From: a virus
Virus record (IMG/VR): IMGVR_UViG_3300020179_000061
Coordinates: 1-42,909 of that record
Direction: 5' to 3' (one strand)
DNA: 42,909 nt
Of this stretch, positions 14,295 to 42,909 are shown piece after piece. The notes below the pieces were generated by a model that had not been told where the DNA came from, did no database searches, and saw nothing but the letters and a program-made list of their open reading frames with translations. A program made the position numbers and the translations under genes. Position 1 is the stretch's first letter; every line of letters begins with the position of its first letter.

Positions 14295-14302
14295 TATTTA
14301 TC
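14295..14302 (-). promoter_or_regulatory. T4-late-like promoter box GATAAATA
   Basis: The box reads GATAAATA on the minus strand, 16 bp before the ATG at 14278. It overlaps the TGA stop of the gp16-like gene, so stop codon and promoter share bases (TGATAAATA). Confidence 0.75.
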
Positions 14303-14783
14303 ACTGGTCTTTGTTTTTATTGGTCAAGATTTTAAGCAATTCTGTACGATCTAATGCTTTACCCTCGCCCAGAGGTATAGATTCTAGTTGTTCTTCATTC
14401 TTGGCTTGTTTTTGATCTATTGTTGCTTTCTTTAACTGCAATTCAATCATTTTAAGTTTTTTCTGTACTTTAGCAGTTTTAGCAGTAATAGCATGTCCTA
14501 GCATTGTGCCTGCAACACCGAATATTTCACTACTATAACGACTATCAACTTGCATACCTAAATCCATTAAATCTTTATAACTATTCTGTGCGAGATTTGC
14601 CAAATCATCCATTTCAATGTCGGCACTTTCTAAGCCACGTACTTGTGGTAATGCATTTTCTATCTTGTCAAGATTTTTAAGAGCTGCTTCTGTTATTTCT
14701 TGTGTTTCTGGTGGTAATTCGACATCATTAGATTCTGACGACACGTTTGCTAACTGAAACAATTCTTCTAACTTTTTGGTCAT
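14301..14783 (-). CDS. gp16: Terminase small subunit, gp16-like
   Basis: The 160-residue length is close to the 164 of T4 gp16. The central helical segment, with YKDLMDLGMQVDSRYSSEIF and GTMLGHAITAKTAKVQKK (residues about 70-115), matches the T4 gp16 pattern in which a helix with FATLMGQM is followed by TNREILKLHKDMKDI. In this family the small subunit forms a ring that regulates gp17 packaging and DNA recognition. The large subunit is not in the window. The gene sits between gp4 and a conserved unknown. A late-like box is only 4 bp before the ATG. The call rests on motif pattern, length and context. Confidence 0.72.
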   Translation of the reverse strand: MTKKLEELFQLANVSSESNDVELPPETQEITEAALKNLDKIENALPQVRGLESADIEMDDLANLAQNSYKDLMDLGMQVDSRYSSEIFGVAGTMLGHAITAKTAKVQKKLKMIELQLKKATIDQKQAKNEEQLESIPLGEGKALDRTELLKILTNKNKDQ

Positions 14784-14787
14784 ACAT

Positions 14788-14795
14788 TATTTATT
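14788..14795 (-). promoter_or_regulatory. Late-like box AATAAATA, almost at the start codon
   Basis: AATAAATA on the minus strand ends 4 bp before the ATG at 14783 and overlaps the stop of gp4. If used, transcription would begin at or inside the start codon. It may instead be chance AT-rich sequence. Confidence 0.4.
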
Positions 14796-29222: not shown

Positions 29223-30605
29223 ATGGCACAATTTTTTTACGATAATCAAATACGTAGATTCTTATTACAATTTGCTAAGATTTTTAGTAATTGGTATGTA
29301 ACTAAAGGTAAGGATCCCAACGGCAATGACATACTTGTTCGTGTTCCTGTAATGTACGGCGATGCTAGTAGACAAGCTAGTACAATTATTGCAAAAAATA
29401 GTGCAAGTAATTTACCCAGTGCTCCATTAATAACTTATTATATTACTGGATTAGAATATGATCAAGGACGTATGCAAGATCCTACATTTATAGATAGACT
29501 TAATGTACGACAACGTGCATATAATTCTGAAAGTCAGACATACGAAACTACACAAGGGCAAGCATTTACTGTAGAACGTTTGATGCCGGTACCTTATACA
29601 TTACGTTGTCAAGTTGATATGTGGACTACAAATTATAATCAAAAATTACAATTAATGGAGCAATTAGGTACGCTTTTTAATCCTGCATTAGAAATTCAAA
29701 GTACAGACAACTTTATAGATTGGACGTCATTAAGTGTTGTTTTTCAAGATGGTATTACATTTAGTAGTCGCAGTATACCTATTGGTACAGGCAATCCAAT
29801 TGACGTATTAACTTGGCGTTTTTACATGCCTATATTCATCAGTACAAGTAGTAAACTGAAAAAGATGGGAGTAATTCATAAAGTTATTGCTAGTATATAT
29901 AAAGGTAAATCATTACTTGATATTAAAGATGAAGATTTATTATTAGGTACACGACAAAAAATTACTCCATATGGTTATAAAGTTTTATTTCAGAATGGAA
30001 CATTACAACTTTTACCTAACGATGAACCGTTCTATCCAAGTAATGAAACTTTTGAAATGCCAGCACCTCCAAATACTAATTTATATTGGACTGCGTTATT
30101 GAACGTATATGGTAAATGGAAACCAGGCATTAGTCAAATATGGTTACAGAACCCTTATATGGAGGATGAAATTGTTGGTACAATTGTTCCAGATCCATTA
30201 GATGATAGAATATTAATTTATCAAGTAGACACTGATACATTACCTCAAAACACATTAACTTCAGTCAGTGGTGTTATTAATCCACTAATGGTAGGCCCAA
30301 ATGCAGGTTTACCAGGGCCTATAAATGGACGCAGATATTTAATTGTTGAAAATATAGGACATGAAGATAATAGTACAGCTGCTTGGGGAGATTTAATTGC
30401 AAGCACTAATGATATTATACAATTTAGTTCGACGACCATGAGTTGGAGCGTAGACTTTGATGCCAGTGACGCTGAAGAAGGTGATGTTGAATATGTAACT
30501 AATCTTGCTAATAATGTACAATATAGATATGTTCAAGAAGAAGGACAATGGATGAAATCATATGAAGGTTGGTATGAACAGGGTGATTACAGTATAGTGA
30601 TCTAA
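29223..30605 (+). CDS. gp15: Tail sheath stabiliser/completion protein gp15
   Basis: The N-terminus FFYDNQIRRFLLQFAKIFSNWYVTK followed by RVPVMYGDASRQASTI matches T4 gp15 (FYNSSFRRYATLMGDLFSNI, IRVPITYASKEH). It continues with VERLMPVPYTLRCQVDMWTTNYNQKLQLMEQLGTLFNP and a conserved VLTWRFYMPIF. In T4, gp15 caps the tail after sheath assembly and binds the neck. At 460 residues it exceeds T4 gp15 (272). The extra C-terminal ~190 residues include LYWTALLNVYGKW, GRRYLIVENIG and YRYVQEEGQWMKSYEGW units. It starts three bases after the gp14-like stop. Confidence 0.87.
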   Translation: MAQFFYDNQIRRFLLQFAKIFSNWYVTKGKDPNGNDILVRVPVMYGDASRQASTIIAKNSASNLPSAPLITYYITGLEYDQGRMQDPTFIDRLNVRQRAYNSESQTYETTQGQAFTVERLMPVPYTLRCQVDMWTTNYNQKLQLMEQLGTLFNPALEIQSTDNFIDWTSLSVVFQDGITFSSRSIPIGTGNPIDVLTWRFYMPIFISTSSKLKKMGVIHKVIASIYKGKSLLDIKDEDLLLGTRQKITPYGYKVLFQNGTLQLLPNDEPFYPSNETFEMPAPPNTNLYWTALLNVYGKWKPGISQIWLQNPYMEDEIVGTIVPDPLDDRILIYQVDTDTLPQNTLTSVSGVINPLMVGPNAGLPGPINGRRYLIVENIGHEDNSTAAWGDLIASTNDIIQFSSTTMSWSVDFDASDAEEGDVEYVTNLANNVQYRYVQEEGQWMKSYEGWYEQGDYSIVI

Positions 30606-31009
30606 TGAATAATACAGCAGTTGGAATATTCTTTTATTGTAAAATAACAAAACGTTTCTTATATCTTTTTAGAAACGATGGTAAAGCCTATGTATGGAGT
30701 ATACCTGGAGGAAAAATAGATCCAGAAGAAACATTACTAAATGGATTAAAACGTGAATGTTTAGAAGAAACTAGTTACTGGCCTACTAACGCTAAATTAA
30801 TTCCTATTCAAAAGTTTGTGAATGGAAGTTTTACTTACCATACTTTTTTCTGTGCGATAAATGAAGAATTCAAACCATTACTTAATGATGAACATTGTGG
30901 ATATGCATGGGTAGGCGATGGACAATATCCACGACCACTACATCCTGGATTATTTTCAACTATTAATATTGATGTAGTGCAAGAAAAACTAAAAACACTT
31001 ACACAATAA
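30605..31009 (+). CDS. NUDIX hydrolase, 134 aa
   Basis: The NUDIX box GGKIDPEETLLNGLKRECLEETSY (about residues 36-59) fits GX5EX7REUXEEXGU, apart from Ser in place of the final Gly. The E residues in RECLEE bind magnesium. Such enzymes hydrolyse nucleoside diphosphates linked to another group. The substrate cannot be told from sequence; mutagenic nucleotides, NDP-sugars and capped or NAD-linked RNA are all family options. The ATG overlaps the gp15 stop (TAATG), so it is translated with structural genes, an unusual partner set for a NUDIX enzyme. The stop codon runs into the shared terminator. Confidence 0.9.
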   Translation: MNNTAVGIFFYCKITKRFLYLFRNDGKAYVWSIPGGKIDPEETLLNGLKRECLEETSYWPTNAKLIPIQKFVNGSFTYHTFFCAINEEFKPLLNDEHCGYAWVGDGQYPRPLHPGLFSTINIDVVQEKLKTLTQ

Positions 31010-31034
31010 AAACGGGGCTTTATGCCCCGTTTTT
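31008..31034. terminator. Bidirectional rho-independent terminator
   Basis: An 11-bp perfect stem (AAAAACGGGGC with GCCCCGTTTTT, 5-nt loop) lies between the convergent NUDIX gene and the 103-residue gene. It has a T-tract on both strands and so can stop transcription from either side. Confidence 0.92.
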
Positions 31035-31054
31035 ACTAGTCATATAGACTATAC

Positions 31055-31366
31055 TCAGCCTACAATCATCTGAATTGCTTCGACACCCGTAGCGCCCAGT
31101 ATTGCTGCTGCGCCCATTAGCATCCATTTTATCTTTTCAATGCCTGATACCTTGTCTGCTAATTCTTCATGTGCTTTATTTTGGCTGTCTTGAAACTCTT
31201 TTAAGAAATCTCTCGTTTCAGCCATGTTACGATCTAAACATTCGTGTAAATCTTTAACATCAATTTTCAATTCATCAACCTTATCATGTAGATTGCGAAC
31301 TTCTAATTGCAATACTGCCACATCGGTAACAGTTTGTTCAAAACGCTTTCTTACTGTTGTTGGCAT
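31055..31366 (-). CDS. Coiled-coil protein with C-terminal membrane segment, 103 aa
   Basis: Residues about 12-75 are a heptad-rich coiled coil (VAVLQLEVRNLHDKVDELKI, DVKDLHECLDRN). Residues about 81-101 form one hydrophobic segment (WMLMGAAAILGATGVEAIQM). This is the layout of XhlA/hemolysin-type holin-associated proteins and of some phage membrane accessory proteins. A role in lysis is therefore possible, but no endolysin is seen nearby. A good AGGAAG ribosome-binding site lies before the ATG, 13 bp after the stop of the 335-residue gene, so they are co-transcribed. The terminator at 31008-31034 ends the unit. Confidence 0.72.
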   Translation of the reverse strand: MPTTVRKRFEQTVTDVAVLQLEVRNLHDKVDELKIDVKDLHECLDRNMAETRDFLKEFQDSQNKAHEELADKVSGIEKIKWMLMGAAAILGATGVEAIQMIVG

Positions 31367-31379
31367 TTTTTACTTCCTA

Positions 31380-32387
31380 TCAAGCCTTATTAATACTTAC
31401 TAATGGATAAGGCATACCATTATCAGCGTTAGCCACAGCAGCAGTATTGAATGTACCGAATGCTGGTGAACTATTGTTAATATTTGCTGCATCATTTGGC
31501 AATGCTGTCTCGCCAGAAGTTGCTGTAAATATTTCAAGAGTATGATCACTTAGGCTTTGTACTAGAGTAGTGTCTGCGTTAGCATATGTTGCAATGATTG
31601 ACATAGTGTTTGGTAACAACGCTGTGTTTGCTAGGTTCGCTGTATAGCACGCACCTACTAATCCAGATGTTGATCCTTTTACCAAATACTTCTGTTTGCC
31701 TTTTTGACGCACGATGAATCCCGCTTCATTGTCAGCATATGCAAAACTTCCGCCTGATACAGCGACCGCCGCATTAGCGGTTAATTCAAGCTCGTCAGCA
31801 GCAGTAATACTATCTACATAGCCAATCAAATCTCCATCACTATTGGCTAATACTGAACCTGCTGATAGTTGAGTATCAAATACAGTGCTACTGCCTGTTA
31901 CAGTAGTGCTATTTGTAGCTGCTGTTAAAGTCCCTGTACCTGACTGGCCAACTGCAACGCGACATAGAACTTGATTACCAAATATTGCAGTATTACCCCC
32001 AACTACACCAAATGTTGCTGTGTTAGTTGCTGGATACCCTTCGCCGCTGATTGGATTGTTGAAATATGCATCAACAACGCCAACTGTTAGGGCTACAGAT
32101 TGTGCTGCTGTAGTTGAAAGATCAACTTTCTCAGAAGTTGGATTTGCAGAAAGTGTAGTTGCAGACACAGTAAATGTACTGTTAGCACCTGCGTTAATTA
32201 CCTCTAGAATAAAATATGTAGTACCTGCTACTAAACCACCTACGCTGCTTGCTGGAATGAATGGCATGCCTGCAATAATGCCTAGAGTAGTAAAGTTTGC
32301 TGAAGTAGTTACGATATCTGTTGCCGCTGCTGTTGCTGTTAATGTAACCACAGCCTGGGCTTTTGCGATTTTTAGTGGACGACCCAT
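31380..32387 (-). CDS. Probable virion structural protein, 335 aa, unknown family
   Basis: The sequence is rich in Ala, Thr, Val and Asn with few charges, like an all-beta capsid or tail decoration protein. It has ITAADELELTANAAVAVSGG in the middle and a basic FIVRQKGKQKYLVKGSTSGLVG segment near residue 220. No catalytic motif is seen. It has a strong AGGAGA ribosome-binding site, a late box (32470-32477) and an 82-nt structured leader, all consistent with high late expression. A decoration, cement or fibre-base role is a guess. Confidence 0.75.
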   Translation of the reverse strand: MGRPLKIAKAQAVVTLTATAAATDIVTTSANFTTLGIIAGMPFIPASSVGGLVAGTTYFILEVINAGANSTFTVSATTLSANPTSEKVDLSTTAAQSVALTVGVVDAYFNNPISGEGYPATNTATFGVVGGNTAIFGNQVLCRVAVGQSGTGTLTAATNSTTVTGSSTVFDTQLSAGSVLANSDGDLIGYVDSITAADELELTANAAVAVSGGSFAYADNEAGFIVRQKGKQKYLVKGSTSGLVGACYTANLANTALLPNTMSIIATYANADTTLVQSLSDHTLEIFTATSGETALPNDAANINNSSPAFGTFNTAAVANADNGMPYPLVSINKA

Positions 32388-32408
32388 TGTTTTTCTCCTA
32401 TAATTTCG

Positions 32409-32462
32409 GGTTCTAGCCGATACGCGGCGGGAACCGCATAAGTCAATACAACAACGTATTGA
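32409..32462 (-). promoter_or_regulatory. Structured 5' leader with two hairpins
   Basis: Between the late box at 32470 and the ATG at 32387 are two inverted repeats. One is a 7-bp stem TCAATAC with GTATTGA (32443-32462). The other is a two-part stem GGTTC/GAACC with GCCG/CGGC inside (32409-32435). The second can also refold as GCGG with CCGC. A role in mRNA stability or translation control is inferred only. Confidence 0.5.
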
Positions 32463-32469
32463 ACAGTAT

Positions 32470-32477
32470 TATTTATC
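32470..32477 (-). promoter_or_regulatory. T4-late-like promoter box GATAAATA
   Basis: The box reads GATAAATA on the minus strand, 82 bp before the ATG at 32387, directly after a T-run that may belong to a weak terminator. Confidence 0.72.
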
Positions 32478-32503
32478 AAAAAAGTAGATTTTTTTACGCT
32501 ACT
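32478..32503 (-). terminator. Weak terminator-like stem with T-run
   Basis: On the minus strand AGTAG and CTACT pair across an 11-nt loop and are followed by TTTTTT, just after the stop of the 89-residue gene. The stem is short. Confidence 0.4.
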
Positions 32504-32504
32504 A

Positions 32505-32774
32505 TTATTCGCCGATAGCTGCGCCAAGTTCTGTGACTGAAAATATACCAGTACCGCTTACACTGATATAAGCAATCTTATTTCCTTCACCTACAATAAA
32601 ACTATTGTTTACAGTATTTGCTGGAATTATTTCACAACCAGTTAAATTTGCTGTTGGATTACTACCTACTGCAACCGCGACTGCACTAGTAGTAGTTGAT
32701 ATACGTACCTTATCAGTGCCTGAGGCTGATGTTTGTTGACTTGTTCCGCTGGGTGTGTAAATTACTGCTGCCAT
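32505..32774 (-). CDS. Small virion-like protein, 89 aa, unknown
   Basis: A short beta-rich sequence of low charge (SGTDKVRISTTTSAVAVAVG, NKIAYISVSGTGIFSVTELG) that resembles small decoration or fibre-associated proteins. The GATAAATA box lies 5 bp before the ATG and no Shine-Dalgarno is present, so it may be translated from a leaderless or read-through message. It follows the giant fibre gene by 13 bp, which suggests an accessory to that fibre, but no family is recognised. Confidence 0.7.
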   Translation of the reverse strand: MAAVIYTPSGTSQQTSASGTDKVRISTTTSAVAVAVGSNPTANLTGCEIIPANTVNNSFIVGEGNKIAYISVSGTGIFSVTELGAAIGE

Positions 32775-32779
32775 AATAT

Positions 32780-32787
32780 TATTTATC
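32780..32787 (-). promoter_or_regulatory. T4-late-like box GATAAATA, 5 bp from the start codon
   Basis: The box fills the gap between the stop of the giant fibre (32788) and the ATG at 32774. Its core match is as good as that of the other boxes, but a transcript would begin at about the start codon. Confidence 0.55.
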
Positions 32788-38409
<5,622 letters not shown>

Positions 38410-38410
38410 C

Positions 38411-38418
38411 TATTTATG
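38411..38418 (-). promoter_or_regulatory. Late-like promoter box CATAAATA
   Basis: CATAAATA on the minus strand lies 28 bp before the ATG of the giant fibre and behind the stop of the nuclease gene (38428). Confidence 0.65.
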
Positions 38419-38427
38419 CTATTGGGA

Positions 38428-39120
38428 CTAATGAACGAAACTTGAATAATACTGTTCTAGTCGTTTAAACCAACATTCTGTCCATTGATCGAACTCAATG
38501 CCTTCTATAATAAACTCTTGATATTGATTATCAGCACTACACATAAAGATAACACCCTTACGTATTTTAGTGCCATAGACTTCATTATGCGCATTTGCAT
38601 AGGCTGCTAACTGTATAAAATAATCTTCAATCCATTCGCGCTTTTTCGGCTTATTAGTTTGTTTGTGATCCATAATAGCATCACTATTTTGATGTACCCC
38701 TACAAGATCAGTAGTTCCTGCATAGACTTCAGGATAATATAAACTTACTTCTGTACCCCAATATTCCTGACATTTGCATAGTCCTTTTTCTATTATAGTT
38801 TTAGCCATATTATGGCTTTGTATACTATAAGGATTAGTGCCTGGATTGCCCGCTTCTCCAGTCTTTATATGATTCTCTAACCATTTATGCATACGTGTGC
38901 CACGACCAGCAGCCTCAGTAGTAATCTGTTTAGCTTTTTCTTCGCCTACACGTTTACGCCATTCTTGTAATGCTTTTTTCTTTTCCTCTGGCTTAGTAGC
39001 ATCTAGTATTGTGGTGACACTGGGTACTGCAAATCCGTCTGGGGTCACATATTTCCTTGACCCATCTATAGTTTGCTTTTTTAATTCAGCATAAGGATAT
39101 TTTGTTGGGATATATATCAA
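38428..39120 (-). CDS. PD-(D/E)XK family exonuclease, 230 aa
   Basis: The C-terminal half has the nuclease core: TEVSLYY (E124), AGTTDLVG (D138), IMDHKQTNK (D151, K153) and QLAAYANA (Q170, Y174), as in Cas4/RecB-type and cyanophage exonucleases. The N-terminal part with VPSVTTILDATKPEEKK and GRGTRMHKWLENH is the usual partner segment. Such proteins resect or repair DNA during phage recombination and replication. No ATG fits: the start is TTG at 39120, overlapping the HesB stop (TTGA), which implies coupled translation. One Cys pair (C115, C117) is present, too few for the usual Cas4 iron-sulfur cluster. Confidence 0.86.
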   Translation of the reverse strand: MIYIPTKYPYAELKKQTIDGSRKYVTPDGFAVPSVTTILDATKPEEKKKALQEWRKRVGEEKAKQITTEAAGRGTRMHKWLENHIKTGEAGNPGTNPYSIQSHNMAKTIIEKGLCKCQEYWGTEVSLYYPEVYAGTTDLVGVHQNSDAIMDHKQTNKPKKREWIEDYFIQLAAYANAHNEVYGTKIRKGVIFMCSADNQYQEFIIEGIEFDQWTECWFKRLEQYYSSFVH

Positions 39121-39437
39121 ACAGTAAAACTCTCGCCGCAGCCGCAGCGTCCACTTTCATTAGGATTAATAAATTCAAATTTTTCATTTAATCCCTGTCT
39201 AATATAATCAACTGTCATACCTTCAAGATGCTTATATGCATCTTTTGTGACCCAAACATAAACATCATCATGTATGCTTAAAAAATCTTCTGATTTCCAT
39301 TCATCAGCAAATTCAATTTTATAGGCATAACCACTGCATCCTGTTTTAGTTATACCCAATCTTATTCCTAATCCTTTGCCGCGATCTTTTAATTGTTCTT
39401 TAAATCTAGTTTTAGCATTACTGGTTAATGTTATCAT
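39117..39437 (-). CDS. hesB: HesB/IscA-type iron-sulfur cluster assembly protein
   Basis: At 106 residues the protein has the complete A-type carrier pattern: an N-terminal MITLTSNAKTRF, the first Cys in TKTGCSGYAYKIEF (C34) and the C-terminal pair GRCGCGESF (C98, C100). These three Cys residues carry the cluster or iron in this family. Host-derived versions are known auxiliary metabolic genes in cyanophages and pelagiphages. It is the first gene behind a sigma70-type promoter whose predicted start site falls on the ATG. It is translationally coupled to the nuclease. It could mature an Fe-S protein of phage or host; the client is unknown. Confidence 0.93.
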   Translation of the reverse strand: MITLTSNAKTRFKEQLKDRGKGLGIRLGITKTGCSGYAYKIEFADEWKSEDFLSIHDDVYVWVTKDAYKHLEGMTVDYIRQGLNEKFEFINPNESGRCGCGESFTV

Positions 39438-39443
39438 ATCTAT

Positions 39444-39471
39444 ATTATAATATAAAGCAACCTAAAGTCAA
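39444..39471 (-). promoter_or_regulatory. Sigma70-type promoter TTGACT-16-TATAAT for hesB
   Basis: On the minus strand TTGACT (39471-39466), 16 bp and TATAAT (39449-39444) end 6 bp before the hesB ATG (39437). Transcription should begin at the A of ATG, so the message would be leaderless. The -35 sequence is the same as in the mazG operon promoter. Confidence 0.8.
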
Positions 39472-39479
39472 GTAATAGA

Positions 39480-39839
39480 TTATTTGTTTAGTGCTTTTTT
39501 AGCCATTTTACTTACTGTGTCTTTACTACTTTCGCTTGACTGAGGTTCAGGAGGTGGTTGCTCTTTATTTCCTCTAAACACTACCTCACCATTTTGAATA
39601 TTTAATATACTTTTCTTAAATGGGTTTTTATCACTAGAAACCATTTTTAAAACATCTTTTTCAGTAAGTGTATAGTTTGAATCGCTTTGCTGTAAATAAT
39701 TATTAATCCATTTAGTAAGTTGATATAATGACCAATTAGATTTTAGTTGTTGTTGATTACGCAAATCTTCAAGACGGCCAGCTGCAACTAAAATCGCATT
39801 AACCTCATCATTTTGATTTTCAAACTCAAAGAGATACAT
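39480..39839 (-). CDS. Conserved small phage protein, 119 aa, unknown
   Basis: The N-terminal two-thirds is probably helical (VNAILVAAGRLEDLRNQQQL, WSLYQLTKWINNYLQQSD) with TLTEKDVLKMVSS and NPFKKSILNIQNGEVVF. The tail is polar, with a Pro/Ser linker and a Lys-rich end. I recall similar proteins in marine T4-like phages but no function. It starts three bases after the stop of the 222-residue gene, so the two are co-translated. Confidence 0.72.
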   Translation of the reverse strand: MYLFEFENQNDEVNAILVAAGRLEDLRNQQQLKSNWSLYQLTKWINNYLQQSDSNYTLTEKDVLKMVSSDKNPFKKSILNIQNGEVVFRGNKEQPPPEPQSSESSKDTVSKMAKKALNK

Positions 39840-39842
39840 TTA

Positions 39843-40511
39843 TTATCTCTTTGCGCGGCCAACTGCTCCAACTGGTTCTTCTGGTTCTTCAACTGGGGCT
39901 TTATCAGGTGCTGCTGGTTCAGTAGTAGCAACTACATCTGTAACTGCCATTTCTTCGCCGCCGCTTGCAGGCGTAAATTCGCCATCTGTTTGTTGTCCTG
40001 TTAAAGCATTTAATGCTTCATTTAATGTTGAGCGTGTTTGGCTTAATGTTTGATTTAGTTGTGTCAAAGCACTGCTTGCTGCTTGGTTGTATGTGTTTGC
40101 TTCATTTACTCCAACTTCGCTTTGCATACTGTCAACTAATGCTGGTAATTCTTTAACCAACATATCGTTACATTGTTCTACCATTTTTTGAACTTTATCA
40201 ACTATTTCTTGAGCCGCAAGTGTCACAGTTGCCTGTTCTACTGCTTGATTTTCTATAATTATTGAAGAATTAGAAAATGTTTTATAATGCTGTGTTAGGG
40301 CTTCAGCAATCATTAATGCCTTTAGATAGGATGAATTGTTATGTGAATCATATGAAGCCTTCTTTTTAGTTTCTTCAATAACATTCATAAATTGAACTAG
40401 CATTTTTCTAGTTTGTATTTTATTAAACTTGCTTACATCTAAGTCATAGTTAAAGTTATTTTTTAGTGCTGATACGGCAACGTCCGTATTATCAAAATGT
40501 TCTAGTTTCAT
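39843..40511 (-). CDS. Conserved helical protein with acidic Pro-rich tail, 222 aa
   Basis: I start at the ATG at 40511 (MKLEHFDNTDVAVSALKNNF), which has an AGGA ribosome-binding site. The in-frame ATG at 40544 overlaps the late box. Residues about 30-70 (NKIQTRKMLVQFMNVIEETK, SSYLKALMIAEALTQHY) and 85-165 are long helices of coiled-coil character. The last ~50 residues are Pro, Glu and Ala rich and end in a basic GRAKR. Similar proteins occur in marine T4-like phages. A scaffold or core-like role would fit the helices, but this is not supported by a known family. Confidence 0.72.
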   Translation of the reverse strand: MKLEHFDNTDVAVSALKNNFNYDLDVSKFNKIQTRKMLVQFMNVIEETKKKASYDSHNNSSYLKALMIAEALTQHYKTFSNSSIIIENQAVEQATVTLAAQEIVDKVQKMVEQCNDMLVKELPALVDSMQSEVGVNEANTYNQAASSALTQLNQTLSQTRSTLNEALNALTGQQTDGEFTPASGGEEMAVTDVVATTEPAAPDKAPVEEPEEPVGAVGRAKR

Positions 40512-40530
40512 GGTATTACATCCTATAGTG

Positions 40531-40538
40531 TATTTATC
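40531..40538 (-). promoter_or_regulatory. T4-late-like promoter box GATAAATA
   Basis: The box reads GATAAATA on the minus strand, 19 bp before the ATG at 40511. It decides against the in-frame ATG at 40544. Confidence 0.75.
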
Positions 40539-40555
40539 ATCCAAATAAAAAATTA

Positions 40556-40999
40556 TTAATGAGTTGTGTATTCTTTAAATGTCTTGTTCTGCCAATATTT
40601 ACTATATTCAACGTAAAGATTCATGGCTTTTTGTGCAGTTTTACGTCTAATTTTATCTTCAGATAGTTTGGCTAAATGCACATATCTATTCTCAATATTT
40701 CTATCAACAAGTCGTTTATGATTAGTAATAGTAGCACTTAAACTATCCAATGTTTCATCTAGTTCTACGATTTTATTTAAATCTTTATGCTTATTATTTT
40801 TATGAAATACACACCAAGTCACTGCATATTTAAGTTGTCCAAACTTTATAATGATAGTCGGATCTTTTATCCATTGTACAGTATATAGTCCTTTGGAGTC
40901 TTTCGTTATTTGATATTGTCCAAAAAGGTGGTAACTGCCATCATCTTGTTTAAGGACTAGTAAGTCTTTAATCTTTTTTGATAAATCAATATGATTCAT
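40556..40999 (-). CDS. Conserved unknown phage protein, 147 aa
   Basis: The N-terminal part looks like a small beta domain (DGSYHLFGQYQITKDSKGLY, TIIIKFGQLKYAVTWCVFH). The C-terminal half is helical (LDETLDSLSATITNHKRLVD, AQKAMNLYVEYSKYWQNK). I recall the CVFHKNNK and KYWQ features from conserved marine phage proteins of unknown role. The ATG follows the upstream stop by one base, so it is coupled to the 139-residue gene. Confidence 0.72.
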   Translation of the reverse strand: MNHIDLSKKIKDLLVLKQDDGSYHLFGQYQITKDSKGLYTVQWIKDPTIIIKFGQLKYAVTWCVFHKNNKHKDLNKIVELDETLDSLSATITNHKRLVDRNIENRYVHLAKLSEDKIRRKTAQKAMNLYVEYSKYWQNKTFKEYTTH

Positions 41000-41000
41000 A

Positions 41001-41420
41001 TTAATATTTAATAAAATGTATATTTTTTATAGGTTTTTCTATGCTTAAGTAAGGTTTTAATCTTAAATCTTCTGTACCACATATAAGCATAGGCACAGTT
41101 TTTACATCCTCCTTAAGATATGCTAATTCATCGTTGCCATCACTAAACACTGCGATACTACGTATCTCAAAATCAAACATCCAACAACTTGTAACATCCA
41201 TATCAAAATAATTTACTGAAATATCAATATATTTCGGCACAGATATATTTTCAGGCTGACTACGCAAAGATATAGATTGTATTATAGTATCAAAGTTTAT
41301 TTGTGTGTTACGTTTATGAACCCAGTCTTTATAATCTATACCCTCAGGCGGTTTAGCCCTATTAGGAATTCCAGTCTGCGTAATATCAAACAGTGTATAA
41401 CAAGCAATTTTATCGCTCAT
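41001..41420 (-). CDS. Conserved unknown phage protein, 139 aa
   Basis: It opens with KIACYTLFDITQTGI, and residues about 30-60 contain WVHKRNTQINFDTIIQSISLRSQPENIS, a pattern I recall in conserved hypothetical proteins of T4-like aquatic phages. The rest is beta-rich (CWMFDFEIRSIAVFSDG, VPMLICGTEDLRLKPYLSI). No catalytic motif is recognisable. A GAGG sequence touches the ATG directly, closer than usual, and a late-like box (41425-41432) lies 4 bp upstream, behind the terminator of the 122-residue gene. Confidence 0.72.
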   Translation of the reverse strand: MSDKIACYTLFDITQTGIPNRAKPPEGIDYKDWVHKRNTQINFDTIIQSISLRSQPENISVPKYIDISVNYFDMDVTSCWMFDFEIRSIAVFSDGNDELAYLKEDVKTVPMLICGTEDLRLKPYLSIEKPIKNIHFIKY

Positions 41421-41424
41421 CCTC

Positions 41425-41432
41425 TATTTACA
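41425..41432 (-). promoter_or_regulatory. Late-like box TGTAAATA next to a start codon
   Basis: TGTAAATA on the minus strand lies 4 bp before the ATG at 41420 and directly follows the terminator at 41437-41468. Confidence 0.45.
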
Positions 41433-41436
41433 AACA

Positions 41437-41468
41437 TAAAAAAGCCCGGGAATTTTAGTTCCCGGGCT
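41437..41468 (-). terminator. Strong rho-independent terminator
   Basis: On the minus strand a 10-bp stem (AGCCCGGGAA with TTCCCGGGCT, 6-nt loop) is followed by TTTTTTAT. It ends the single-gene unit of the 122-residue protein. Confidence 0.93.
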
Positions 41469-41494
41469 CTATGTCGCATAACTTTAACTAATTA

Positions 41495-41863
41495 TTAGTT
41501 AGTGAAAGTTGCTGAGGCTGCTACTGTTACTGCTGCTGGGGCAACTGCGTCTACTGCTGTTTTTAGAGTAGCTGCTGTATATGCTCCAGTTGGATACAAT
41601 GCTAGTGCGATTGTGTCGTTAGCTGCATCAGTATATTCATAAATCATAACTGTTGAAATCTGTTGAACAGTTTGCATGATTGTGTTTACTTCTGTACCAG
41701 TCAATGCGCCGTCTGCTGTGATTGTGAAAAAATCAAGCTTTGGGCCTTGTGGCTGTACAGTAAGTGCTGAACTGACTGCGTTTACACCTGAATTTGTGTA
41801 TGAGTTTGCATCTAAGTGAAATACTGGTTTTAAGTCGCCAGAGACTCTAGTGAATTGTGCCAT
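41495..41863 (-). CDS. Small probable virion protein, 122 aa, single-gene late unit
   Basis: The protein is rich in Ala, Thr and Val with little charge (DLKPVFHLDANSYTNSGVNA, LDFFTITADGALTGTEVN, TVMIYEYTDAANDTIALAL). This suggests a compact alpha/beta virion or decoration protein. It has the same promoter box (ACTAAATA) and ribosome-binding site (GGAGA) as the abundant tail tube gene, a leader hairpin, and a strong terminator of its own. This suggests it is made in large amounts. No family with a known role is recognised. Confidence 0.75.
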   Translation of the reverse strand: MAQFTRVSGDLKPVFHLDANSYTNSGVNAVSSALTVQPQGPKLDFFTITADGALTGTEVNTIMQTVQQISTVMIYEYTDAANDTIALALYPTGAYTAATLKTAVDAVAPAAVTVAASATFTN

Positions 41864-41880
41864 TTTTTAAATCTCCATGT

Positions 41881-41902
41881 TGTTTGACCTTCAAAGAGGT
41901 CT
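41881..41902 (-). promoter_or_regulatory. Leader hairpin of the 122-aa gene
   Basis: GACCT and AGGTC pair around a 6-nt loop in the leader between the late box and the ribosome-binding site. It may protect the 5' end; the stem is only 5 bp. Confidence 0.4.
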
Positions 41903-41907
41903 ACTAT

Positions 41908-41915
41908 TATTTAGT
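41908..41915 (-). promoter_or_regulatory. Late-like promoter box ACTAAATA
   Basis: ACTAAATA on the minus strand lies 44 bp before the ATG at 41863, the same box variant as for gp19. Confidence 0.7.
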
Positions 41916-41955
41916 CCATTTACTAAAATACATGGATTTGGACAGACTTTTTAAC

Positions 41956-42204
41956 TTATTCTTGTGTACCTAAAGCCTGTCTTATTTGTGCTTTTTGTTG
42001 CTGTGGTAGATTTTTAACAATATTAATAAGTTTGTCAACTTTCTGTATACGTGGTGTTTGAGAGGTAACTGCTGGACTTGTAGACGCAGAAGGTTGAGTT
42101 GAAGTTTTTGCTGCTGTTTTCTTTAAACCAGCTGCTGTTTTTAGTGAGGTTGGACTTACTTCATCCAACTCTTTACTTTCATTAATAATTTCATGCATTC
42201 TCAT
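41956..42204 (-). CDS. Small conserved basic protein, 82 aa, unknown
   Basis: The N-terminus MRMHEIINESKELDEVSP is a short acidic helix of a kind seen in many small aquatic T4-like phage proteins, where related KXHEII starts are followed by varied tails. A Ser/Thr/Pro linker leads to a helix (VDKLINIVKNLPQQQKAQIR). Either ATG 42204 or ATG 42198 may be used. No function is known; the shared N-terminus could be a sorting or binding tag. Confidence 0.65.
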   Translation of the reverse strand: MRMHEIINESKELDEVSPTSLKTAAGLKKTAAKTSTQPSASTSPAVTSQTPRIQKVDKLINIVKNLPQQQKAQIRQALGTQE

Positions 42205-42208
42205 ATTA

Positions 42209-42460
42209 TTATTTATCTATTTGTTTGTTTTTTTTAACAGATTTTGCGAATCGACTAGGCTCTCTATTTTTAATAGAACTTAGTAACTTCTTTTCAAATA
42301 ATTCTGCTGTTTCGGTATTATAGTGGCGCTCCATTAATTTAATTAAATTAATAGCACTAGTAATAATATTAGTGCCGCGACTTTCGACAATATGTGGAAT
42401 ATCACGGTTTAAAGATATGGAGTCTAATTCCTCTAAGAGGCTTTTAGTTCTTTTTTGCAT
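42209..42460 (-). CDS. Small conserved basic protein, 83 aa, unknown
   Basis: The sequence is mostly helical (TKSLLEELDSISLNRDIPHI, TSAINLIKLMERHYNTETAE) with a Lys-rich tail that may bind nucleic acid. It lies directly downstream of the helicase gene, with an AAGG ribosome-binding site and its own late box (42477-42484). Its stop codon overlaps the box of the next gene. No family function is recognised. Confidence 0.7.
   Translation of the reverse strand: MQKRTKSLLEELDSISLNRDIPHIVESRGTNIITSAINLIKLMERHYNTETAELFEKKLLSSIKNREPSRFAKSVKKNKQIDK
42210..42217 (-). promoter_or_regulatory. T4-late-like box GATAAATA
   Basis: The box overlaps the stop codon of the 83-residue gene and lies 5 bp before ATG 42204 (11 bp before ATG 42198). 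Confidence 0.6.
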
Positions 42461-42476
42461 ATAGATACCTTTCTAA

Positions 42477-42484
42477 TATTTATC
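42477..42484 (-). promoter_or_regulatory. T4-late-like promoter box GATAAATA
   Basis: The box reads GATAAATA on the minus strand, 16 bp before the ATG at 42460, in the gap after the helicase stop at 42497. Confidence 0.72.
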
Positions 42485-42496
42485 TTGTAAAGGTGT

Positions 42497-42909
42497 CTAT
42501 TGTCCTAAATCTCTTAATAATGACTTTAGTTTAGAAGCCCCTATATTTGCTGATACTTTGCTTGATTCTTCTGATATTGTATTAGCAGTAATCTGTGAGG
42601 TGTTCTTAATTTGTGCTAATAATTCACTACCTGTAGTCTGCGGTTTTGGGTCATTTAGATGATTGTTATCAGTAATACGTAGTGTTTCAACATCAAACGC
42701 AAGTTCAATCTTCTGACCTACACCCGAACTACTACGTGTTTTCATCAACTGTATCTGATAAAGTCCACGCTCACGCATACTGCGACTTGTAAATATACCA
42801 AACACATTATCCGCAGTATTGATCTTACTGATACCACCTGCTATATGACTATGATCAAATTCGATTTCTTCAACTGCACTACGATTTAACTGACTAGCCG
42901 TTACAAACA
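42497..42909 (-). CDS. gp41: Replicative DNA helicase (gp41/DnaB-like), C-terminal part
   Basis: The minus frame is open to the right edge, so only the last ~136 residues are seen. They begin VTASQLNRSAVEEIEFDHSH and continue IAGGISKINTADNVFGIFTSRSMRERG and LMKTRSSSGVGQKIELAF. The SQLNR segment is the DnaB-family motif H3. The TRSSSGVG loop with basic residues fits the motif H4 region of T4 gp41-like helicases in aquatic phages. The enzyme is the hexameric 5'-3' fork helicase. The tail after DVETLRITD is polar. A GTG at 42805 is internal, not the start. N-terminal and Walker motifs lie outside the window. Confidence 0.85.
   Translation of the reverse strand, partial: FVTASQLNRSAVEEIEFDHSHIAGGISKINTADNVFGIFTSRSMRERGLYQIQLMKTRSSSGVGQKIELAFDVETLRITDNNHLNDPKPQTTGSELLAQIKNTSQITANTISEESSKVSANIGASKLKSLLRDLGQ

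Follow-up and report, generated by a model that had tools for sequence, protein, structure and literature searches.

To our knowledge, most work on leaderless translation concerns a small number of bacterial groups, along with isolated cases such as lambda cI. Leaderless genes of the Deinococcus-Thermus group, as described in the accessible text of one study, carry a -10 element adjacent to the open reading frame, ~6-7 bp upstream of it, that replaces the ribosome-binding site; close to a third of D. radiodurans genes are so arranged, and a further class there has a GGAG site (PMC12340547). The locus described here resembles this layout. It differs in that the Deinococcus-Thermus arrangement belongs to a bacterial genome, as far as that text describes it, whereas the present one belongs to a phage group, mostly includes a -35 element, and is accompanied by a T4-type late class that is likewise placed. 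The leaderless lambda cI message offers another likeness, being a phage gene started at its 5'-terminal AUG (accessible part of PMC9031893), as is predicted here; cI, however, is one gene, the repressor of a temperate phage, whereas the arrangement reported below involves 23 sigma70-type and 29 late-type gene families.

T4 late promoters have a TATAAATA-type TATA box that starts at -13, without a conserved -35, in the accessible text of PMC2988020. The phage group studied here similarly uses ATAAATA, but the hesB promoter is not of that type, and in T4 itself 0 of 26 counted late boxes lie at 4-8 nt from a start. The accessible text of the AR9 paper states that phage transcripts 'are often leaderless', with AR9's own leaders at 26-491 nt (PMC5312081), and in that of a study of the T4-like phage Melnitz promoters are counted as early or late, while the word 'leaderless' appears in a reference title only (PMC9004378). 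Among the matches listed in the open literature, with subscription papers mostly outside it, there was no report of a two-class layout in T4-like phages, and the word HesB was absent among those listed for phage hesB.

The DNA analysed here is a virus record of 42,909 bases, the whole of which we call the window. Judged by its gp15-like protein, the annotated phages closest to it are Agrobacterium phage Atu_ph07, Sinorhizobium phage Phosso, and PA5oct-like phages, which indicates a T4-like phage of the jumbo kind.

The hesB locus in the window

The features discussed are collected in Table 1. The HesB protein matches PF01521 with 52.7 bits (cut-off 26.3), residues 2-102 falling on profile positions 3-110, and matches chain 1s98_A (yfhF), which we take to be E. 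coli IscA, with an E value of 2.9e-26. Its Cys34, Cys98, and Cys100 align with the GCSG and CGCG motifs of that chain, and these three cysteines of IscA/HesB proteins bind the iron-sulfur cluster. The first-pass annotation had called the gene host-derived, which its IscA-like character may fit, but a scan reaching close relatives only gave six cellular matches, 47-54% identical. Membership of this family suggests that the protein may act as an iron-sulfur carrier during infection. One further match, in CAKLQH020000011 (filed as Acinetobacter phage MD-2021a), was set aside as it sits in an isc operon; with iscS, iscU, iscA, hscB, and hscA in a row, this is probably bacterial DNA.

Table 1. Positions of the promoter elements, late boxes, and genes considered in the window.
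Feature	Coordinates	Strand	Remarks
-35 hexamer TTGACT	39466..39471	-	Direct reading of sequence
-10 hexamer TATAAT	39444..39449	-	Direct reading of sequence; ends 6 nt before ATG
hesB ATG	39435..39437	-	Predicted transcription start at 39437 or within 1-2 bases
hesB / iscA-like A-type iron-sulfur carrier, 106 aa	39117..39437	-	PF01521, phrog_17776, 1s98_A, cysteines
Exonuclease, 230 aa, TTG start	38428..39120	-	phrog_298 exonuclease, E 4.1e-53
Gene preceding hesB, 119 aa	39480..39839	-	Context, outside the unit
Late box ATAAATA	32780..32786	-	5 nt before ATG of gene 32505-32774, zero-leader
Late box ATAAATA	42210..42216	-	5 nt before ATG of gene 41956-42204, zero-leader
Late box ATAAATA	14788..14794	-	4 nt before ATG of gene 14301-14783, zero-leader
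TTGGTA-18-TATAGT	30569..30598	+	-10 ends 6 nt before ATG of NUDIX gene 30605-31009

Read along the minus strand, the order is TTGACT, a 16-nt spacer, TATAAT, atagat, and the ATG at 39437. This agrees with the first-pass annotation, which had described a TTGACT-16-TATAAT promoter ending 6 bp before the hesB ATG with no ribosome-binding site between them. No match to such a site was found in the 20 nt upstream of hesB, an absence that partly follows from the layout, since the -10 element fills that space. Transcription from sigma70 promoters starts ~7 nt downstream of the -10, and the start sites vary by one or two bases. The annotation had also seen no alternative ATG near the conserved N-terminus. 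Neither of the contrary findings that it named, a start site well upstream or a later in-frame start for HesB, is visible in the sequence, and the ATG is the sole plausible start: the frame upstream of it reaches a stop after nine codons with no ATG, GTG, or TTG on the way. The ATG moreover suits the conserved N-terminus, with PF01521 aligned from residue 2 and 1s98_A from its residue 3. The overlap between the TTG of the nuclease (39120-39118) and the hesB stop, noted at the same time, was confirmed as TTGA.

With 11/12 matches, TTGACT-16-TATAAT is the best of the promoter-like sites in positions 30000-42909. This AT-rich stretch of 12.9 kb holds 61 such sites, compared with 48.7 in its shuffles, so a bare promoter match at hesB means little. 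A T4-like middle promoter was also considered and rejected: TGCTTTA is present at 39459-39453 but lies 3 nt from TATAAT, and the T4 MotA box is spaced ~12 nt from the -10. The 119-aa gene that precedes hesB, for which family searches gave no match, ends 42 nt ahead of the hesB ATG, and a scan of the window found no terminator between the two.

An iron-sulfur cluster in the exonuclease was examined as a reason for its pairing with HesB and rejected. Cas4-like iron-sulfur nucleases have four conserved cysteines, and the just two conserved here do not suggest a cluster of the Cas4 type. Cys194 (window numbering) is present in 14/14 aligned proteins. Cys117 is present in the 13/13 from hesB-bearing loci and missing from the hesB-less L028, an association with hesB that depends on this single hesB-less sequence; other cysteines are not kept. 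Elsewhere in the window, positions 32385-32461 on the minus strand match the Rfam freshwater-2 cis-regulatory RNA (RF02980) with 66 bits against a cut-off of 49.9, and the match extends over the start codon of gene 31380-32387.

The promoter in relatives and its place in the exonuclease unit

Scanning viral contigs yielded 23 loci with hesB, 68-100% identical. L003, L004, and L022-L024 were omitted, as their upstreams are identical to others, and the remaining 18 loci have 15 distinct 60-nt upstreams. In 15/15 of these the highest-scoring sigma70-like site stops 5-7 nt short of the ATG and a -35-like hexamer lies 16-18 nt from the -10. Shuffle p values are <=0.07 for 14 of the 15; the exception, L015, has a decayed -35 (TTTAGT) and a p value of 0.34. 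The promoter sequences vary widely, with GTTGA-type -35 regions and TATAAT in one group and TTGATT, TTGCAT, or TTGAAA with TAAAAT or TAAACT in a second. Where a different gene lies upstream of hesB (L012, L013, and L015-L017) the promoter is retained, which shows that it travels with the downstream genes. The upstreams of relatives thus give strong support to the earlier prediction of a sigma70 promoter placed for a leaderless hesB message. The distinct hesB starts scored were ATG in 44/44 cases, under a start rule that favoured ATG, and in L007, L009, L011, and L014 the hesB frame also offers TTG or GTG at the next codon upstream. A shared operator, GTTGANTTTTTNCAAC, was proposed and rejected. 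Allowing <=2 mismatches it is found in 23 places in 13/19 records, some of them hesB promoters, but it is barely enriched at that tolerance because the pattern read backwards matches 11 times.

The promoter is associated with the first gene of a unit that includes the exonuclease. A scan for this protein gave 267 relatives, and the best 80 of 267 were kept. Three layouts were observed. In the first, the promoter is followed by hesB and then the exonuclease, through a TTGA overlap with the hesB stop, or alternatively an SGNH-like gene, joined to hesB by an ATGA overlap, is interposed between the two. In the second (L076, L077, L096, L098, L103, L104, L106, L107, and L126), hesB comes after the preceding gene with no promoter in between; the promoter instead lies downstream of hesB, 6 nt ahead of the exonuclease. 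In the third (L078, L087, L088, L108, L111, L113, L114, L124, and L128), there is no hesB in the flank examined and the promoter lies directly before the exonuclease, at 6-8 nt. As the promoter often precedes the exonuclease where hesB is absent or belongs to the preceding run, it goes with the exonuclease unit and not with hesB alone. Exceptions among hesB-less loci are L073, L079, L082, and L119, with their near-copies, which have longer leaders, and L090, L094, and L118, which have weak sites only.

The additional gene with the ATGA overlap was seen between hesB and the exonuclease in L005, L007, L008, L010, L011, L014, L018, L020, and L021. Its motifs are mostly of the NGCSFTY...GQGL type, suggestive of an SGNH hydrolase, and the gene of L010 differs. 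One SGNH-like member that was scanned matched DUF6071 alone, under the cut-off, and the SGNH label comes from the motifs.

In total, 102 distinct gene starts were scored, 44 of hesB and 58 of the exonuclease. Those with an upstream gap of 30-120 nt (56/102) fell into 47 clusters with <85% similarity between them. The best site is at 5-8 nt in 31/47 clusters and also has a score of at least 8 in 27/47, compared with means of 5.8 and 0.43 and maxima of 13 and 4 in dinucleotide shuffles; the other 20/47 fall short in distance, score, or both. Clusters with real leaders include L058, L071, L073, L079, L082, and L120, L028 has a terminator-like hairpin, and nothing similar to the promoter was found upstream in L121 and L122. 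Ten clusters with gaps <12 nt gave 3 with a site at 5-8 nt and 0 with a score of at least 8. A further 36/102 starts were outside both gap classes, the gap calculation being unsuited to overlapping genes; among these, L087 and L088 carry a good site, at 7 nt, and none of the remaining 34 combines the distance with the score. The clusters share descent, so that their counts cannot be read as independent, and the support lies in a distance that persists as the sequence diverges.

ATAAATA was found in the 60 nt upstream of 0/47 of these first-gene clusters. Together with the conserved -35/-10 pair, the lack of a late box in the 47 clusters suggests that the hesB promoter is of an early type. Inverted repeats exceed shuffles (p <=0.05) in 11/47 first-gene upstreams, ten of which precede the exonuclease. 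Repeats of differing sequences span the -35 to the -10 in L077, L098, L103, L104, L108, L114, L119, L124, and L128, and in L108 a 16-pair stem extends to the ATG. An operator and an RNA hairpin in read-through messages are both candidates for what these repeats represent.

Cultured phages carry related arrangements. The exonuclease has matches in 951 phage records, and among the matches listed the upstreams of 12 were inspected (Atu_ph07 and 11 others). In PA5oct and Paride the exonuclease is preceded by TTGACA-17-TATAAT-7-ATG; the 75 nt compared are identical, so these two phages count as one case. This orthologous gene shares the zero-leader promoter and differs in that no hesB is annotated beside it; in PA5oct it comes after a run of virion structural genes. 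The distance from -10 to ATG is 13 nt in the enterobacterial relatives GAP32, PHA46, and 121Q and 17 nt in RaK2, the leader is longer in Vibrio phage 2.275.O, and the exonuclease upstream of Phosso has no comparable site. In 023Pt_psg01, DSL-LC04, and HTVC023P the exonuclease is located in other gene contexts. An own promoter for the exonuclease thus seems widespread, with zero leader as one state of that promoter. A terminator-like hairpin with a T run was observed a few bases before the exonuclease ATG in Atu_ph07 (L167) and in the hesB-less L028 (3310-3390), leaving no room for a promoter after it.

Distances of promoters and late boxes from gene starts

ATAAATA occurs 18 times on the minus strand of the window, the strand of most genes, and 0 times on the plus strand. 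Because this motif reads the same backwards, strand bias and control phages were used in place of a reversed-motif control. An 8-base box that starts at -13 ends at -6, so an ATAAATA that ends 5 nt before an ATG would place the +1 on the A. The site before the NUDIX gene (Table 1) scores 7.7, which is under the counting cut-off, and its orthologs in four related records (G011, G012, G013, and G022) pass at zero-leader spacing. This site sits inside the end of the preceding gene, for a tail-sheath stabiliser.

Across related contigs the distance from ATAAATA to the gene start falls into two classes, 4-7 nt and at least 14 nt, and the handful at 10-11 nt correspond to second ATGs of genes that the 4-7 nt class already includes. 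A phage-wide count was made over 15 related records with 1135 genes, leaving out the record that carries the window's stretch (G002) and setting gene starts by a mechanical first-ATG rule. The 128 strong sigma70-like sites comprise 47 near a start (5-8 nt), 7 at 9-20 nt, 70 at 21 nt or more, and 4 at <5 nt. Late boxes precede 187 genes, with 51 near (4-7 nt), 3 at 8-13 nt, 130 far, and 3 other. The control set consisted of T4 (all), Atu_ph07 (270 of 490 kb), and PA5oct (270 of 287 kb), with 1003 genes. Here 95 sigma70-like sites gave 3 near, 12 between, and 75 far, and 82 late boxes gave 2 near, 2 between, and 77 far. Fisher tests of the 15 records against these controls gave 3e-10 and 2e-7, values that treat related genes as independent. 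Most of the 15 records were chosen for holding hesB, which accounts for 7/47 near sites, with the exonuclease adding 1 more. Within PA5oct, zero-leader spacing is found for 1/37 sigma70-type sites and 1/30 late boxes; the exonuclease provides the sole strong zero-leader sigma70-like site found in that phage and is one of the 3 near sites of the controls.

Motifs resembling ribosome-binding sites are present in 2% and 0% of near genes compared with 67% and 62% of far genes, a contrast that is partly built in because the promoter occupies the space before near genes. The near genes belong to the 23 sigma70-type and 29 late-type families mentioned above, and the same gene changes spacing class between phages. 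For example, family 11 (MAAAIYTPSGSS) is zero-leader in 6/12 members and has a box at 17-19 nt with a ribosome site in 5; family 10 (MQKRTKSLLEEL) is zero-leader in 5/13, with a box at 16-18 nt and a ribosome site in 7 and a distance of 10 nt in 1. Nine near-class sigma70-type proteins were scanned and 7 matched Pfam, as dNMP kinase, AAA clamp-loader-like protein, DnaJ, 5'-3' exonuclease, metallophosphoesterase, Rv2179c-like exonuclease, and DNA polymerase III alpha domain. These functions fit early expression. The PA5oct protein annotated as late sigma factor has a match in 2/6 records searched, the two largest.

A probable leaderless hesB message and other readings

We consider it likely that a conserved sigma70-type promoter, lying within a block of late virion genes, has its +1 on the hesB start codon and yields, probably early, one leaderless message for hesB, the SGNH-like gene where there is one, and the exonuclease. 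Initiation at this codon would produce a message that begins at the first codon, on which ribosomes would start hesB at the 5'-terminal AUG; the next gene would be translated by coupling through the TTGA or ATGA overlap. Read-through RNA from the upstream virion genes should translate hesB poorly, since hesB has no ribosome-binding site, and this would tie hesB output to its own promoter. A strict block of this type is countered by the second layout, where hesB must be translated inside a longer message. The arrangement at hesB is one case of a habit of the phage group, in which promoters of both types are spaced either for zero leader or for a longer leader that often bears a ribosome site. 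A wider model, possible though doubtful, is that T4-like jumbo phages follow a genome-wide two-mode programme. Host-type and late promoters would each give zero-leader or leader-bearing messages, genes would switch mode in evolution, and the zero-leader class would exploit the translation state of the infected cell, so that an embedded gene is translated only from its own promoter.

Other explanations can be proposed for the locus itself. The promoter may be real and hesB nevertheless mostly translated from read-through late RNA, by AU-rich, S1-dependent initiation or by coupling, with the leaderless message as a minor product. The short distance of 42 nt from the preceding gene, the failure to find a terminator in it, and the loci L096, L098, and L103, where hesB lies close behind the preceding gene and lacks its own promoter, are in keeping with this. 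We regard it as unlikely, however, as it leaves unexplained both the -10-to-ATG distance of 5-8 nt amid changing sequence and the empty range of distances shared by the two promoter types. That empty range also bears on whether transcription starts a few bases up or down, giving a leader of 1-5 nt or a message lacking the first codon, with the spacing due to compactness only. The variation of sigma70 start sites by one or two bases would allow such a shift, as would the 7-8 nt found between -10 and ATG in part of the set, but a full range of 4-8 nt beside nearly empty ones of 8-13 or 9-20 nt would not be expected from compactness alone, and we judge this improbable.

It is very improbable that the site is a late promoter, with TATAATATA a variant T4-type box and hesB a late gene. 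The genes around hesB are late-type and TATAATTA is present in some relatives, but ATAAATA is missing from every one of the 47 clusters, several relatives carry TAAAAT, TAAACT, or TATAGT, and the -35 is conserved at 16-18 nt whereas T4 late promoters are described without a conserved -35 in the accessible text of PMC2988020. Least probable of all is a chance match in AT-rich DNA, for although the 61 matches in 12.9 kb come close to the 48.7 of shuffles, the place and form of the promoter are conserved in divergent relatives far beyond shuffles.

In the 15 related records, 37% (47/128) of strong sigma70-like sites and 27% (51/187) of late boxes are at zero-leader spacing, and start-calling methods that rely on a ribosome site may put gene starts in the wrong place in phages of this kind. 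PA5oct and Paride grow on Pseudomonas aeruginosa, which makes the zero-leader prediction testable now. A gene that is leaderless in one phage and led by a ribosome site in another, as the spacing classes predict, would provide a natural experiment on the origin and purpose of leaderless genes.
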